The translations under genes and the position numbers were made by a program. Positions 45,596 through 51,795 of a stretch of 64,000 nucleotides of DNA are shown in pieces. This stretch comes from Bacteroidales bacterium (lineage in GTDB: Bacteria; Bacteroidota; Bacteroidia; Bacteroidales; F082), in contig JAFPWT010000009.1 of NCBI GenBank assembly GCA_017394865.1, positions 1-64,000 on the forward strand, written 5' to 3'. The notes beneath the pieces were generated by a model. It made no database searches. It was not told the DNA's origin and saw only the letters and a program-made list of their open reading frames with translations. Positions within the stretch are counted from its first letter, which is position 1. Each line of letters begins with the position of its first letter.

Positions 45596-45701
45596 ATTAT
45601 GTTACGTTTTAAAAATGCAAAAATACGTTTATTATTTAATCTATTGAGCTATTGTTTTCGTGCCAAAATCGTTATTTTTGCACATTGTTAGGAACAAACC
45701 C

Positions 45702-46346
45702 ATGACTGGACCTCAACTGATTATCGTGACCGTCATCATCGTTTTCGTGATTGCCTTTGCCATCACGATGATCCTGCTGAACAACCATGCGAAAAGTCTG
45801 GTGTCAACCAACAAAAAGTTGGTGGAAAACCAAAACACCCTGTTGGAACAGAACATGCAACACGAAATAGCCTTGGAAAAACGCATCGACGAATTGGAAG
45901 AGCAGTTGAAACACCCTCCGATGGATGAAGTTGCATTGCTGCAAAAGCAGACACGCCAACATCGAGAGCACATCGAACTGACCGCCAACATGAGCGATGA
46001 GGAACTCATGGCTTGGGTAGACCAAGAGATGGACGAGCGGCAACTTTACACCGACAGCAACCTCAGCCTGAAGACGATGGCCAAAGCACTCGGCTTGACA
46101 CAAAAGCGGTTGGGCGAACTATTCAAAAACCATGAAAAATACAGCAGCTTAGGTGATTATCTGAACGAAAAACGGGTTTTGTTGGCTTGCCGCCTCTTAC
46201 GCGAAAATCCCAATTGGACCATCGAAGCCGTTGGAACAGAGGCTGGCTTTGGCAGTCGACGCACCTTCCAGATGGAAATGAAACGCCGCCTCGGCATTAC
46301 TCCTTTACAGTACCGACAGGGTCTGGAGCGTATGGTTTCCCAATAA
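45702..46346 (+). CDS. Membrane-anchored AraC-type helix-turn-helix protein
   Basis: 214 residues from the ATG at 45702, fixed by TATTTTTGC at 45673-45681. One membrane helix (about 5-27) is followed by a coiled coil (about 30-90), then a single AraC DNA-binding region (KTMAKALGLTQKRLGELF to GFGSRRTFQMEMKRRLGITPLQYR). This is like the output half of membrane-bound regulators without a sensor domain. Its last 50 bases overlap the end of the convergent gene at 46297. Confidence 0.82.
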   Translation: MTGPQLIIVTVIIVFVIAFAITMILLNNHAKSLVSTNKKLVENQNTLLEQNMQHEIALEKRIDELEEQLKHPPMDEVALLQKQTRQHREHIELTANMSDEELMAWVDQEMDERQLYTDSNLSLKTMAKALGLTQKRLGELFKNHEKYSSLGDYLNEKRVLLACRLLRENPNWTIEAVGTEAGFGSRRTFQMEMKRRLGITPLQYRQGLERMVSQ

Positions 46347-47069: not shown

Positions 47070-48182
47070 ATGAGGGACTATTTTAACCATATTTTTTGTC
47101 CTGCCCACATGGTTTTGTGCGGCTTGTTGATGATGGCTATGATGATAGGCTGTACCAAAGATCCTATCATCCTGCCGAACCCCGATGAGGAACAACCCAG
47201 CGGAGCGCCGCTAGTCATTGTCATCTATGGTCCCAACTCGTTGGGCGACCGTTCCTATTGCGACATGATTTACACCGGCGTGGAAAAGGCAGCCCAACAA
47301 CATGGGTTGCGAACCTTACAGTTCTCGCCTGAGAGCGAAGAGGAAGGACTGGCCTACTTGGAGACCATCATCAGCGAGATGGAACAGAACGCCGACACAG
47401 TGCGCCGACTGCTCATCACCCCAGGCGTGGGCTACGATACTTACATCCGTGCCAACAGCCACCGTTTGGAATCCAACCCACGCGCTGACCTGCTCTATAT
47501 GGAGACCACCACACCCCTCGAAAGCAAAGGCTCGACGCTTTACATCGACTACTACGGCGCGATGTACATGGGGGGTTGCATGGTGCATTACACGACTTAT
47601 GACTACGACAAAGAATTAGTATCTTTGGTGTTGGCCAACCCTCATACGCAGTCGGTACGCGAGGCGGGTGAGGGATTTGTTGCGGGCTTCAACGACACTC
47701 AGGGGCTTGACTCCTTGGCATTGCACATCCGTTACTTGAGTCAAGAACCCGTCGGTGGATTCACGCTGAGCGACACTGCCGCCATCCGTATCATCAGAGA
47801 GGAAAGCACCTACCTTTATGAAGATACTGAAGGCATTACGTTAGTGCCAGTTTGCGGCGGCGCCATGCACAGCCTGATGCGTGCCATCCGAGGAACGCAA
47901 CTGTTTGCCACGAACCAATACATAGGCATCGACGGCGACATGAATGCCGACAACTTTTTTTGCCCTTTCTCCATCGTGAAACATGTCGATGTGGTGATGG
48001 AAGATTATATCGGGATGTGGCTCGAGGACACGATGCCCAAGCACCAAACCCTCGGCCTGGCCGACGGAGCCACGGGCGTCATCGTTGGCAACTATTTTAT
48101 ACCCAACGATTTGAATCTTATTGATATAGATAGCCTATGGCAGGTGGCTGTCGGAAAGGAGGCGGGAAGATGGATAAAGTGA
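47070..48182 (+). CDS. BMP/PnrA-like substrate-binding lipoprotein
   Basis: 370 residues with a lipobox ending MIGC (Cys28). The first strand-helix unit (VIYGPNSLGDRSYCDMIYTGVEKAAQQHGL) follows the basic-membrane-protein/PnrA type of periplasmic-binding fold, which binds nucleosides. A later block (YIGIDGDMNADNFFCPFSIVKHVD) fits the hinge and second lobe. No ABC transporter genes are adjacent, so it may act as a receptor rather than a transporter subunit. Promoter-like TATTTTTG at 47046-47053. The stop lies inside the next gene, with 13 bases of overlap. Confidence 0.7.
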   Translation: MRDYFNHIFCPAHMVLCGLLMMAMMIGCTKDPIILPNPDEEQPSGAPLVIVIYGPNSLGDRSYCDMIYTGVEKAAQQHGLRTLQFSPESEEEGLAYLETIISEMEQNADTVRRLLITPGVGYDTYIRANSHRLESNPRADLLYMETTTPLESKGSTLYIDYYGAMYMGGCMVHYTTYDYDKELVSLVLANPHTQSVREAGEGFVAGFNDTQGLDSLALHIRYLSQEPVGGFTLSDTAAIRIIREESTYLYEDTEGITLVPVCGGAMHSLMRAIRGTQLFATNQYIGIDGDMNADNFFCPFSIVKHVDVVMEDYIGMWLEDTMPKHQTLGLADGATGVIVGNYFIPNDLNLIDIDSLWQVAVGKEAGRWIK

Positions 48183-50473
48183 AAAACTATGGAGCCATCA
48201 TACTATTCTTTGCCATCCTTCTGACAGGGTGCCATAAGGACGATGAATATATCTATCAAGACACGCGGCAATGGGTGGAGAAGACGGTAGTCGTGGTGGC
48301 ACCCACCTCCGACCCCATCATGAAGGCCCGTCTGGAACGTACCGCTGACTGGATGCAGCAAAACCTGCACAACGCACAGCTGCACGACACGCTCTGCATT
48401 ACCTTGAAGTTGGAATGGTATGACGAACGCACCGAGGACATGGCCGCTTTGGGCGAAGAGTTGGCCTCACGCGAGGATGTGATGGCCATCATCGGGCCCT
48501 TCGACAACGACCGCGCCAACCGCTTTGCTCCCTATTGCCAACGGACAGGCAAGCCCCTCATCCTGCCCACAGCCACCAGCGAGTCGCTCATCCGCCGTTT
48601 CGCCATCACCAGCACCGGCGACGGTCAACAGCCTTTCCTGTGGTCGCTTACCGAGACCGACATCTCACAGTCGGAGGTGATGCTCAGCCTCTGTGCCACC
48701 TACCTGCAACAATATCCCAACGAAATTATCAACGAAATGTCCTCGCTGGGCGCCCTCTTCACGCCCAACAACAGCTATGGGCAGACTTTCTATGACTGGG
48801 CACCCTTCCAGGCCACCGAGTTAGGCATCGGCTTTAACTGGTGCGAAAAGTACAACAACGACGATCAGCTCTACCAGCAGCTGCAAAGCTACTATGACGA
48901 AATAGGAGAATACTTTTACAGTCTTTACATCCCCTCGTTGATTGTAGCCGAAAACGCAGAGCAACTCTACCAGATTGCCCGTATGCGAAGCCTGTGGTTG
49001 GGCATCGACCCCGACGACCCTGCGGGCGACAACGATGAAGAGGCCTATCTCCGCGTGGTTTGGGCACCTGTCCATTACGCCATTTCAAACCTCACCGATG
49101 AGGCGATCACAGCCCTCGGTCCTCGTGGCATCGCCCTTAGCAGTGGCTATCAAGGCTATTCGCCTTACGCCGACCCCACCACAGGCTTCGAGATGAGCTA
49201 CGAAAGCCTTTACGGTGTGAAGCCCACCTTTGCCGAATGCAAGTTCTACGACGCCCTGCTGCTCTCCGCCTTCGCGGCAAGCTATATGGAACACCACAAC
49301 TCCGACAACCTGAACGACGCCATCATCGCCATCACCACCACCGACAATATTCTCAATGGTGCCGCTTGGAGCGAGATGGGCATGGAACTTTACTTGACCA
49401 GTCTCGAACGTGGCAAATTGATCGGCTTCAAAGGCGCCTGTGGCGCAGTGCAGTTCGACAAGGATTGCTACACTGCCGCCCTCAACACCACTTACGTCAA
49501 CTGGGTTATCGATGAGGGTCATGTGCGGCATCAAGGCTACTACAGCACCTCGGGTGGCGCGCAGACGGGTGAAGCCTTGGCTTCGTGGAACTGGCTCGTC
49601 AGCAACGCCGCCGCCACCTTCGATGCACAATATGGCGGCTCGTCCGACATCACCTACCCGGCCATGACCGACCAATACGCCGTATTGGTGCAGGGCAGCA
49701 ACGGCTGGAGCAACTACCGTCACGAAGCCGACGTGCTCAACGTATATCAGATGCTGAAAGCGGGCGGCTACGACGACGACCATATCATCATGGTGTTGGC
49801 CGACGAAGTGGCTACGGCACCAGAGAATACCGACTATGGTGCCGTGCGCACCGACCCCAACGGTCCCAACCTGCGTGAAGGCGCCGTCATCGACTACCGC
49901 AGTGCCGACCTCACGCCGCAAGACATCGTCAACATCTTGCAAGGCACCCCCACTGGCCGCACGCCCGTGGTACTGCCTGGTGGATCCGGACACAACGTCT
50001 TTTTCTTCTGGAGCGGACATGGCCGCAGCATGCCTGCCGGTGGCGTGAACGAGATGGCATGGCGCAACCTGCCTGCTGGCAACGGCATGACCGCCGACCT
50101 CCTTGCACAGACCCTCTCGCAGATGGCCTCGCAAGGGCGTTTCCGCCAGATGCTCGTCTGCCTCGAACCCTGTTTCTCGTCCAACCTGGGCAAAGCCCTT
50201 GAGGGGATTCCTGGTGTGTTGGCCATCTGCGCTGCTGGACCTTACGAGCAGTCGTTCGCCGATTCGTGGAGCAACGAGTTGGGCATCTGGATGTGCGACC
50301 GCTTCAGTCGCAACCTTGTGGGCCATGCCACCACCCACCCCAATGGCACCTACCGCGACCTCTACCTCTACTGCGCCCAACACACCCTCGGCTCGCATGT
50401 CGGCATTTTCAACCACACCAACTTCGGTAATCTATATACCTCCCAAACCCGTGACTTTTTCATTAACGAATAA
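48170..50473 (+). CDS. Receptor-legumain fusion: type 1 periplasmic-binding domain plus C13 cysteine peptidase
   Basis: 767 residues from the ATG at 48170; lipobox ending LTGC (Cys21). Residues of about 40-470 follow the LivK/Peripla_BP_6 receptor fold (VVVVAPTSDPIMKARLE, DVMAIIGPFDND, then TATSESLIRRFA). From about 502 the sequence becomes legumain-like: YAVLVQGSNGWSNYRHEADV, DDDHIIMVLADEV, then FFFWSGHG with catalytic His617 and MLVCLEPC with catalytic Cys668. These fit the clan CD rule of a hydrophobic block, HG, and a hydrophobic block, E/D-x-C. C13 enzymes cut after Asn/Asp or, like GPI8, transfer acyl chains. The fusion suggests that ligand binding controls a peptidase on the envelope. 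Confidence 0.82.
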   Translation: MDKVKNYGAIILFFAILLTGCHKDDEYIYQDTRQWVEKTVVVVAPTSDPIMKARLERTADWMQQNLHNAQLHDTLCITLKLEWYDERTEDMAALGEELASREDVMAIIGPFDNDRANRFAPYCQRTGKPLILPTATSESLIRRFAITSTGDGQQPFLWSLTETDISQSEVMLSLCATYLQQYPNEIINEMSSLGALFTPNNSYGQTFYDWAPFQATELGIGFNWCEKYNNDDQLYQQLQSYYDEIGEYFYSLYIPSLIVAENAEQLYQIARMRSLWLGIDPDDPAGDNDEEAYLRVVWAPVHYAISNLTDEAITALGPRGIALSSGYQGYSPYADPTTGFEMSYESLYGVKPTFAECKFYDALLLSAFAASYMEHHNSDNLNDAIIAITTTDNILNGAAWSEMGMELYLTSLERGKLIGFKGACGAVQFDKDCYTAALNTTYVNWVIDEGHVRHQGYYSTSGGAQTGEALASWNWLVSNAAATFDAQYGGSSDITYPAMTDQYAVLVQGSNGWSNYRHEADVLNVYQMLKAGGYDDDHIIMVLADEVATAPENTDYGAVRTDPNGPNLREGAVIDYRSADLTPQDIVNILQGTPTGRTPVVLPGGSGHNVFFFWSGHGRSMPAGGVNEMAWRNLPAGNGMTADLLAQTLSQMASQGRFRQMLVCLEPCFSSNLGKALEGIPGVLAICAAGPYEQSFADSWSNELGIWMCDRFSRNLVGHATTHPNGTYRDLYLYCAQHTLGSHVGIFNHTNFGNLYTSQTRDFFINE

Positions 50474-50531: not shown

Positions 50532-51137
50532 ATGAAGCGTAATGTTTTGATGACGCTGGCCGCCGTCGTGGTTTGCGGCCTGGCTGTGACACTGTTCACC
50601 CAGTGCAACAAAGACAAAAACAAGAACCCCGAGGTAACGATGATGTACTATGTCTCTGTCAGCCCCGACGTGCTGAGCGTGGCCAACGTAGAAATCAACT
50701 ACCTCAACGCCACTGGTGCCCAACAGAAAGAAATCCTGACCGACACTGCATGGAAGAAACCCTTGGAGACTAATACCCTGCCTCTCACTGAGGGCGTGTG
50801 GGCCAAGCTCACACCGAAGGCTTCCATTGCTGATGGCAACTACCAATTGAGCATTCACGCTGTTGCAGCTTACGGCATCAAGTTGACTGACGGCACGAAT
50901 ACCCATGATGGCTGGCAAAACGCCAACTACAGCACCATCACCACTGCACGGAATGCCGATGAGGTAGCCGTTTGGTGTGCTCAAAGCCCAACAGTAGCCA
51001 TCACCATCGACAAGGAGGGAGTTTCCGACCTCACCCATGTGGATTTTGGCGGCAACGGTGACTCAACCAACTCATACAACGGTTTTTGTAAATTCATAGC
51101 CTGGCTCTTTGGTTTTGATCCAGAAGATTGTGAATAA
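50532..51137 (+). CDS. Small lipoprotein, tandem paralogue 1
   Basis: 201 residues. Hydrophobic signal ending LFTQC (Cys25) and a lysine/asparagine-rich linker. The body of about 150 residues appears beta-rich, and the last 20 residues hold two cysteines (FCKFIAWLFGFDPEDCE). I do not recognise a family. It is paralogous to the next gene. It follows the receptor-legumain gene by 58 bases and could be a partner or substrate of it. Confidence 0.7.
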   Translation: MKRNVLMTLAAVVVCGLAVTLFTQCNKDKNKNPEVTMMYYVSVSPDVLSVANVEINYLNATGAQQKEILTDTAWKKPLETNTLPLTEGVWAKLTPKASIADGNYQLSIHAVAAYGIKLTDGTNTHDGWQNANYSTITTARNADEVAVWCAQSPTVAITIDKEGVSDLTHVDFGGNGDSTNSYNGFCKFIAWLFGFDPEDCE

Positions 51138-51177: not shown

Positions 51178-51795
51178 ATGAAAAAAAGCATCTTTATGAC
51201 CTTGGCCGCCGTCGTAGTTTGCGGCCTTGCATTGACCTTGTTCACCCAGTGCAACAAAGACAAAAACAAGAACCCAGAAGTGAAGATGATGTACTACGTC
51301 TCTGTCAGCCCCGACGTGCTGAGCGTGGCCGACGTAGAAATCAACTACCTCGACGCCACTGGTGCCCAACAGAAAGAAATCTTGACTGACACTGCATGGA
51401 AAAAACCTTTGGAGACCAATACCCTGCCCCTCACCGAGGGCGTCTGGGCCAAGCTCACCCCCAAGGCTTCCATCACCGATGGCAACTACCAACTAAGTCT
51501 CCGCACCGTCGCCGCTTACGATGCCATTCTGTCGGACGGCACAAATGCGCATGATGGATGGGAGAACGTCAACTCAGACATCACTATTGCCCAAAATGCA
51601 GAAGAAATAGCCGCCTGGTGTGCTCAAATCCCGGCTGTGGCTATCGCCATCGACAAGGAGGGCAGCTCCGAAATTACCCAGGTAGATTTCGGTGGTAACT
51701 ACGATTATGACCCGAGTGGATATAAAAGCACACTCTGCGTTGGCTGGTGCTGGCTCTTTGGATACGATCCAGAAGAACGTTGTGAAAAATGGTAA
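51178..51795 (+). CDS. Small lipoprotein, tandem paralogue 2
   Basis: 205 residues, paralogous to the previous gene, with the same signal, linker and first 110 residues at very high identity. The middle diverges, and the C-terminus again has the pattern WLFGYDPEERCE with extra cysteines. No family is recognised. The duplicated pair directly behind a peptidase gene suggests a matched function. The stretch to 51887 holds only a fragment resembling the R repeat tail at 51800-51816. Confidence 0.7.
   Translation: MKKSIFMTLAAVVVCGLALTLFTQCNKDKNKNPEVKMMYYVSVSPDVLSVADVEINYLDATGAQQKEILTDTAWKKPLETNTLPLTEGVWAKLTPKASITDGNYQLSLRTVAAYDAILSDGTNAHDGWENVNSDITIAQNAEEIAAWCAQIPAVAIAIDKEGSSEITQVDFGGNYDYDPSGYKSTLCVGWCWLFGYDPEERCEKW

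Follow-up and report, generated by a model that had tools for sequence, protein, structure and literature searches.

The first 64,000 nucleotides of contig JAFPWT010000009.1 (assembly GCA_017394865.1, a Bacteroidales bacterium; hereafter the window) encode a lipoprotein of 767 amino acids in which a type I periplasmic-binding-protein domain of the LivK type is joined to a legumain-type peptidase domain of family C13 (48170..50473, +; coordinates below are on the + strand unless marked otherwise). This joining of receptor and peptidase in one lipoprotein, put forward in a preliminary description made from the sequence alone, was confirmed by family profiles and predicted folds. The fusion gene does not stand alone but is part of a conserved operon with an upstream binding-protein lipoprotein and, in many relatives, lies with MACPF genes. 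The fusion protein is probably a receptor for small molecules combined with a legumain-type protease, on the cell surface.

The function favored here, at a probability of about 0.43, is that of a surface sensor-protease processing co-encoded surface lipoproteins. As an outer-surface lipoprotein, the fusion would bind a small ligand through its LivK-like domain, perhaps helped by the PnrA/BMP-type lipoprotein encoded upstream, and ligand binding would control an Asn/Asp-specific cysteine peptidase of legumain type. The peptidase would then process surface lipoproteins from its own operon. In many relatives these substrates would include BSAP-like MACPF proteins, with cleavage activating, releasing or inactivating an antibacterial pore-former, while the presumed partners in the window's clade are two small lipoproteins encoded downstream. 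If true, the fusion would let a single protein turn a chemical cue into proteolysis outside the cell.

Domains and active site of the fusion protein

The protein begins with a signal peptide (residues 1-20, 48170..48229) ending in the lipobox LTG/C. The LivK-fold domain (residues 34-469, 48269..49576) is followed by a linker forming one helix in the predicted model (residues 470-498, 49577..49663) and by the Peptidase_C13 domain (residues 499-767, 49664..50470). The peptidase half matched PF01650 with an E-value of 1.4e-41 (143 bits for a cut-off of 22.8, profile positions 1-251 of 258). Its predicted structure displayed the caspase/legumain fold of C13, in agreement with the fold assigned to this half in the preliminary description. 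C13, and not C11, was the only peptidase family matched by the fusion protein in Pfam. The chain stops at residue 767, where the catalytic domain ends, leaving no sequence for a C-terminal LSAM prodomain, and the protein was therefore classed as C13 rather than as legumain proper.

In single-sequence comparison, the peptidase half was clearly closer to legumain (5.2e-28) than to GPI8-like enzymes (8.6e-18). This argues against a GPI8-like transpeptidase or ligase coupling surface proteins to another molecule, which we regard as very improbable.

The two residues first singled out as a catalytic pair, His617 in SGHG (50018..50020) and Cys668 in LEPC (50171..50173), were each conserved in 76 of 78 homologues. 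Both were present together in 119 of 121 relatives (111 of 113 after removal of near-duplicates), as expected of the predicted catalytic residues. Positions aligned with legumain were also conserved among the 121 relatives, namely R517 (121), S695 (120), H518 (115), N515 (114) and E666 (111). The segment N515-Y-R517-H518 (49712..49723) lies opposite N-Y-R-H of legumain, and D710 (50297..50299) opposite the Asp of the S1 pocket; the roles of N-Y-R-H and of the S1-site Glu, Ser and Asp in legumain are assumed here. Position 710 varied more, with Asp in 77 relatives and Asn in 41. Although the pocket varies elsewhere, the window's copy is likely an active enzyme of the Asn/Asp type, because its catalytic and legumain-aligned residues are conserved ones.

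Two other copies departed from this pattern. A distant paralogue in genome G255 (L017:8344-10557), whose gene follows that of a TonB-dependent receptor, no longer has either catalytic residue (SGNG, DASN) and is likely a receptor-like pseudopeptidase. Another copy (L093:8001-10376) is frameshifted within the peptidase domain, through either an assembly error or gene decay.

The receptor half belongs by fold and family profile to the type I periplasmic binding proteins (LivK/HAAT). Its motif P-T-A-T-S, opposite the loop P-S-A-T of LivJ, was nearly invariant (P133 in 77, T136 in 76 and S137 in 76 of 78 homologues). A doubtful though serious alternative is that this half serves for docking or spacing, or recognizes the substrate or a surface glycan, with the peptidase always on. 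The motif and the neighboring BMP gene count against it, arguing for binding, but not for switching. The receptor domain has no known ligand, which favors such a role, as does the spacer function suggested for BACON, likewise a non-catalytic domain of surface proteins in Bacteroidales (PMC12853789).

The same domain order was found in other genomes, as had been proposed for a check of the fusion. In the GTDB genomes, 408 relatives were found, the best 80 of which were analyzed; in these, every match began by residue 78 and ended at or after residue 702. They were mostly labeled Bacteroidales, Bacteroidia, Bacteroidaceae, Prevotellaceae, Prevotella or Xylanibacter, with one Oscillospiraceae and two named only "bacterium". 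The isolate Xylanibacter ruminicola D31d carried a copy 67% identical to that of the window. The distribution was patchy: of 99 genomes from the window's genus, 5 carried a full-length fusion, with one fragment in addition, and in an order-wide sample 6 of 295 genomes had a match. In a sample of 395 genomes of the phylum, the best of the other C13-profile matches reached 2.3e-12, against 9.9e-43 for the window's fusion.

Operon partners and surface export

The gene directly upstream (47070..48182) shares 13 bases with the fusion gene and encodes a PnrA/BMP-type binding-protein lipoprotein of 370 amino acids. A profile of five sequences of its family matched TmpC/PnrA (2fqw, E-value 1.1e-11) and Lbp (7x0r, 2.5e-9). 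PF02608 (Bmp) matched two of the five members, and the window's own upstream lipoprotein had no Pfam match. A PnrA/BMP-type gene lay directly upstream of the fusion in 98 of the 110 loci having room for one.

Binding-protein folds of the LivK and PnrA/BMP types normally serve ATP-binding cassette (ABC) importers with permeases of family PF02653. This family was not found in seven of eight genomes carrying the fusion (G108 has one), among them four of the five that are at least 90% complete, the window's genome being 73% complete; it was present in 12 of 14 control genomes. A role as component of an ABC amino-acid importer is weakened by the absence of the cognate permease.

The permease counts also bear on a nutrient-capture role, in which a surface protease would digest plant or host protein and the two binding proteins would retain liberated amino acids or nucleosides for import. 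The LivK-type and PnrA-type folds fit such a role, and many of the best 80 records are rumen or forestomach genomes, going by isolate names. TonB/SusC-like genes lie upstream at L017 (Pfam), and inspection by eye suggested a SusC/SusD-like pair (L025:1623-6596) and a TonB-receptor-like gene (L024:1618-4191) upstream of the operon. However, besides the missing permease family, no SusC-sized open reading frame (ORF) was found near the window's copy, and legumains are enzymes of narrow specificity. Nutrient capture is considered unlikely, more so than a docking or spacing role of the receptor.

The outer surface is a more likely location for the protein than the periplasm, because the tail at the lipid-anchor Cys21, CHKDDE (48230..48247), fits the surface export signal of Capnocytophaga, C-X-K-(D/E)2-X (PMC5080379, where SDDDD is the motif proposed for B. 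fragilis). The four lipoproteins of the window's cluster have the tails CTKD, CHKD, CNKD and CNKD, and the same pattern search picked out six further lipobox-like ORFs in the window, none with an X-K-D tail. The full consensus, which is that of Capnocytophaga, was matched within the cluster by the fusion only. Among homologous ORFs, 80 of 88 showed a lipobox pattern; of the 83 with a lipobox called, 69 had at least two acidic residues at +3 to +6, and only eight combined K/R at +3 with an acidic residue at +4. From its tail, the fusion protein is likely exposed outside the outer membrane.

Downstream of the fusion lie the genes of a small lipoprotein of 201 amino acids (50532..51137; lipobox-like, tail CNKDK) and of its similar tandem paralogue of 205 amino acids (51178..51795). 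The former had no Pfam or NCBIfam family above the cut-off; it is possibly a substrate or a regulator of the fusion. Linked partners in the window's clade are such lipoproteins of about 200 amino acids, unrelated to the accessory lipoprotein of MACPF operons in a profile test without signal peptides. Kinship between the two had been considered, but the profile match disappeared once signal peptides were removed. Another locus (L018) contains at least four consecutive ORFs for small lipoproteins, which, together with the near-alike adjacent pair of the window, suggests a recent expansion of these genes.

Linkage to MACPF genes in relatives

MACPF matches were obtained for 6 of the 37 proteins scanned from the neighborhoods of fusion genes, at L015 (three), L016 (two) and L061 (one). 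In three genomes, the MACPF genes at the fusion locus were all those found genome-wide (three of three in G290, two of two in G108, one of one in G854), and in G855 one of two was located there. The linkage was then assessed starting from MACPF genes. Of 241 genomes belonging to the same family as G855, 24 had MACPF (23 over the cut-off), 43 a fusion match and 14 both, so that the two co-occurred more often than expected (Fisher odds ratio 9.1, p 2.4e-6; 10.3 and 8e-7 without three genomes having only fragment or one-domain matches).

In 13 of the 24 MACPF-bearing genomes, about 8 kb at most separated the fusion from MACPF genes, and all 32 nearby MACPF genes were on the strand of the fusion. 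Three MACPF genes were found at 9 of the 13 linked loci, and an accessory lipoprotein of about 380-460 amino acids lay between MACPF and BMP/fusion genes at a minimum of five. Two linked genomes have further MACPF genes elsewhere (two in G1075, one in G855). In G1091, a BMP-like fragment at the end of a contig adjoins three MACPF genes. In the order-wide sample, MACPF was found in 20 of 295 genomes (17 over the cut-off), together with the fusion only in G108 and G290; no fusion was detected at the 15 other MACPF loci fetched, some on short contigs.

Operons with MACPF genes hint, by their gene content, at a bacterial counterpart of the human perforin/legumain machinery. In its strongest form this would be a ligand-triggered perforin system: the receptor-legumain would sense a small molecule and process MACPF or other lipoproteins of its own operon, which would be fired or released at neighboring cells, in parallel with legumain (asparaginyl endopeptidase, AEP) and perforin-2. 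We hold this extension to be doubtful, at well below even odds.

The same linkage would also be explained by a protective enzyme or immunity factor, sensing and cleaving foreign pore-formers or envelope damage signals. Against this role, resistance to BSAPs is described as due to altered receptors and not to proteolysis, and most carriers of the fusion in the sampled family (29 of 43) had no MACPF match. It is rated improbable, slightly below nutrient capture, even though one surface lipoprotein from a CDCL toxin operon has been tested for an immunity role (PMC11169675).

Several observations weigh against a sensor-protease processing its operon partners. The fusion has no known ligand, substrate or activity, and the Pfam match of its receptor half falls below the cut-off when searched from the single sequence. 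The window's genome (73% complete) and two near-complete fusion-bearing congeners showed no MACPF, so the link to pore-formers does not apply directly to the window's copy. Besides the 29 fusion genomes without MACPF, a fusion match was missing from 10 of the 24 MACPF genomes in the sampled family and from 18 of the 20 in the order-wide sample. When 121 copies were placed on a tree, the 17 linked to MACPF required 7 changes, compared with 16.1 after shuffling; not every adjacency counts as independent, because most linked copies form one deep clade with scattered cases besides, and the linkage test itself followed a post-hoc discovery.

Cleavage specificity may also differ in the MACPF-linked copies, because D710 is mostly replaced there: Asn710 was found in 14 of these 17 copies, whereas the 25 copies linked to a small lipoprotein like those of the window had Asp (24) or Arg (one). 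From the alignment, Asn at this position may shift the P1 preference, going with either partner or clade. Moreover, proteolysis may not be needed by the one MACPF toxin tested, since killing by BSAP-1 was unreduced after substitution of three candidate C11 protease sites (PMC12853789), although the authors of that article allow for an external trigger, for example proteolysis. Perforin-2 reportedly needs no legumain cut to form pores in vitro.

Known systems and other neighbors

The steps of the sensor-protease model gain plausibility from precedents, namely toxin activation by C11 proteases, BSAPs, the legumain-perforin-2 pair and ligand-responsive clan-CD peptidases. Surface C11 lipoproteins (fragipain, DpnB) activate Fab1, BcpT and CDCL toxins, BSAPs are surface MACPF lipoproteins of Bacteroidales, legumain processes the MACPF protein perforin-2 in dendritic cells, and other clan-CD peptidases respond to small ligands. 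The switching of the protease by a small molecule, as first proposed, remains a plausible hypothesis. Further sources drawn on were PMC4357240, PMC5834244, PMC7614779, PMC8406203 and PMC9308784.

Each of these systems resembles the fusion in part only. Compared with legumain (MEROPS C13), the fusion is a bacterial lipoprotein with an added N-terminal LivK-type domain, SGHG in place of DHG and no room for the LSAM prodomain. Compared with the branched-chain amino-acid binding proteins LivK and LivJ, it has an attached peptidase and an export-signal-like tail, and its carriers mostly (seven of eight) miss the usual permease family. The C11 proteases are likewise clan-CD surface lipoproteins acting on antibacterial toxins, which for the fusion serves as a working analogy. 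They belong to another peptidase family, no ligand-binding domain is mentioned for them in the text available, and fragipain is encoded outside the BFT islands, unlike the operon-encoded fusion. BSAPs resemble the MACPF surface-type lipoproteins adjoining the fusion in relatives, although the window's genome shows none. Perforin-2 and AEP likewise pair a MACPF protein with a legumain-type enzyme, but in eukaryotic lysosomes and without a receptor domain, the bacterial pair being known from gene linkage alone.

Clan-CD proteases acting on toxins at the Bacteroidales surface are thus already known, while a built-in small-molecule receptor, or a legumain encoded beside perforin-family proteins, was not met in the literature searched. 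The open-licence PMC matches listed, going by titles and abstract openings, included no description of a binding protein joined to a C13 protease in bacteria, nor of a C13-MACPF operon. No open-licence PMC paper naming both MACPF and legumain concerned a bacterial MACPF or legumain by title or abstract opening. The word "legumain" is absent from the 2025 BSAP paper (PMC12853789). If true, the proposed function would suggest a mode of control for a group of MACPF proteins and provide a compact model of legumain-MACPF processing.

A reading of the locus as a mobile element or defence system was rejected, as no plasmid match, no relative in viral contigs (56 stretches matched the search pattern, none a relative) and no PADLOC match among seven proteins were obtained. 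Elsewhere, lipoproteins of about 790 amino acids (LP4) replace MACPF, at 15 loci in neighbor clustering (8 members in a later set). A Gly-rich hydrophobic stretch in one example (L065:8809-11181) and its homologues raised the suspicion of pore-formers, which was dropped because MACPF similarity was weak and restricted to an N-terminal stretch (probability 36%). The single LP4 protein scanned alone had no Pfam family and the AlphaFold model was poor (pLDDT 59.9); given the weak similarity and poor model, no identity is claimed. MACPF operons and LP4 operons share one lipoprotein family, made up of the accessory lipoprotein in the former and the longer lipoproteins in the latter (E-value 4.8e-39, signal peptides removed).

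Upstream of the operon, an AraC/HTH_18 protein with a hydrophobic N-terminus (45660..46346; HTH_18, E-value 1.6e-14) is a candidate regulator only, and 11 AraC-like proteins were found at 9 of 86 fusion loci. A long ORF antisense to the fusion (49085..50416, -) was taken as a by-product of codon bias. Locus L207 contains two fusions and two BMPs, and L048 and L052 two diverged fusions each. Very large proteins adjoin the fusion at 17 of the 86 loci (L083, L036, L025 and L023 among them); many of them end in a motif resembling what we take to be a type IX secretion sorting tail, and both of those scanned (L036, L083) contained BspA-type leucine-rich repeats.

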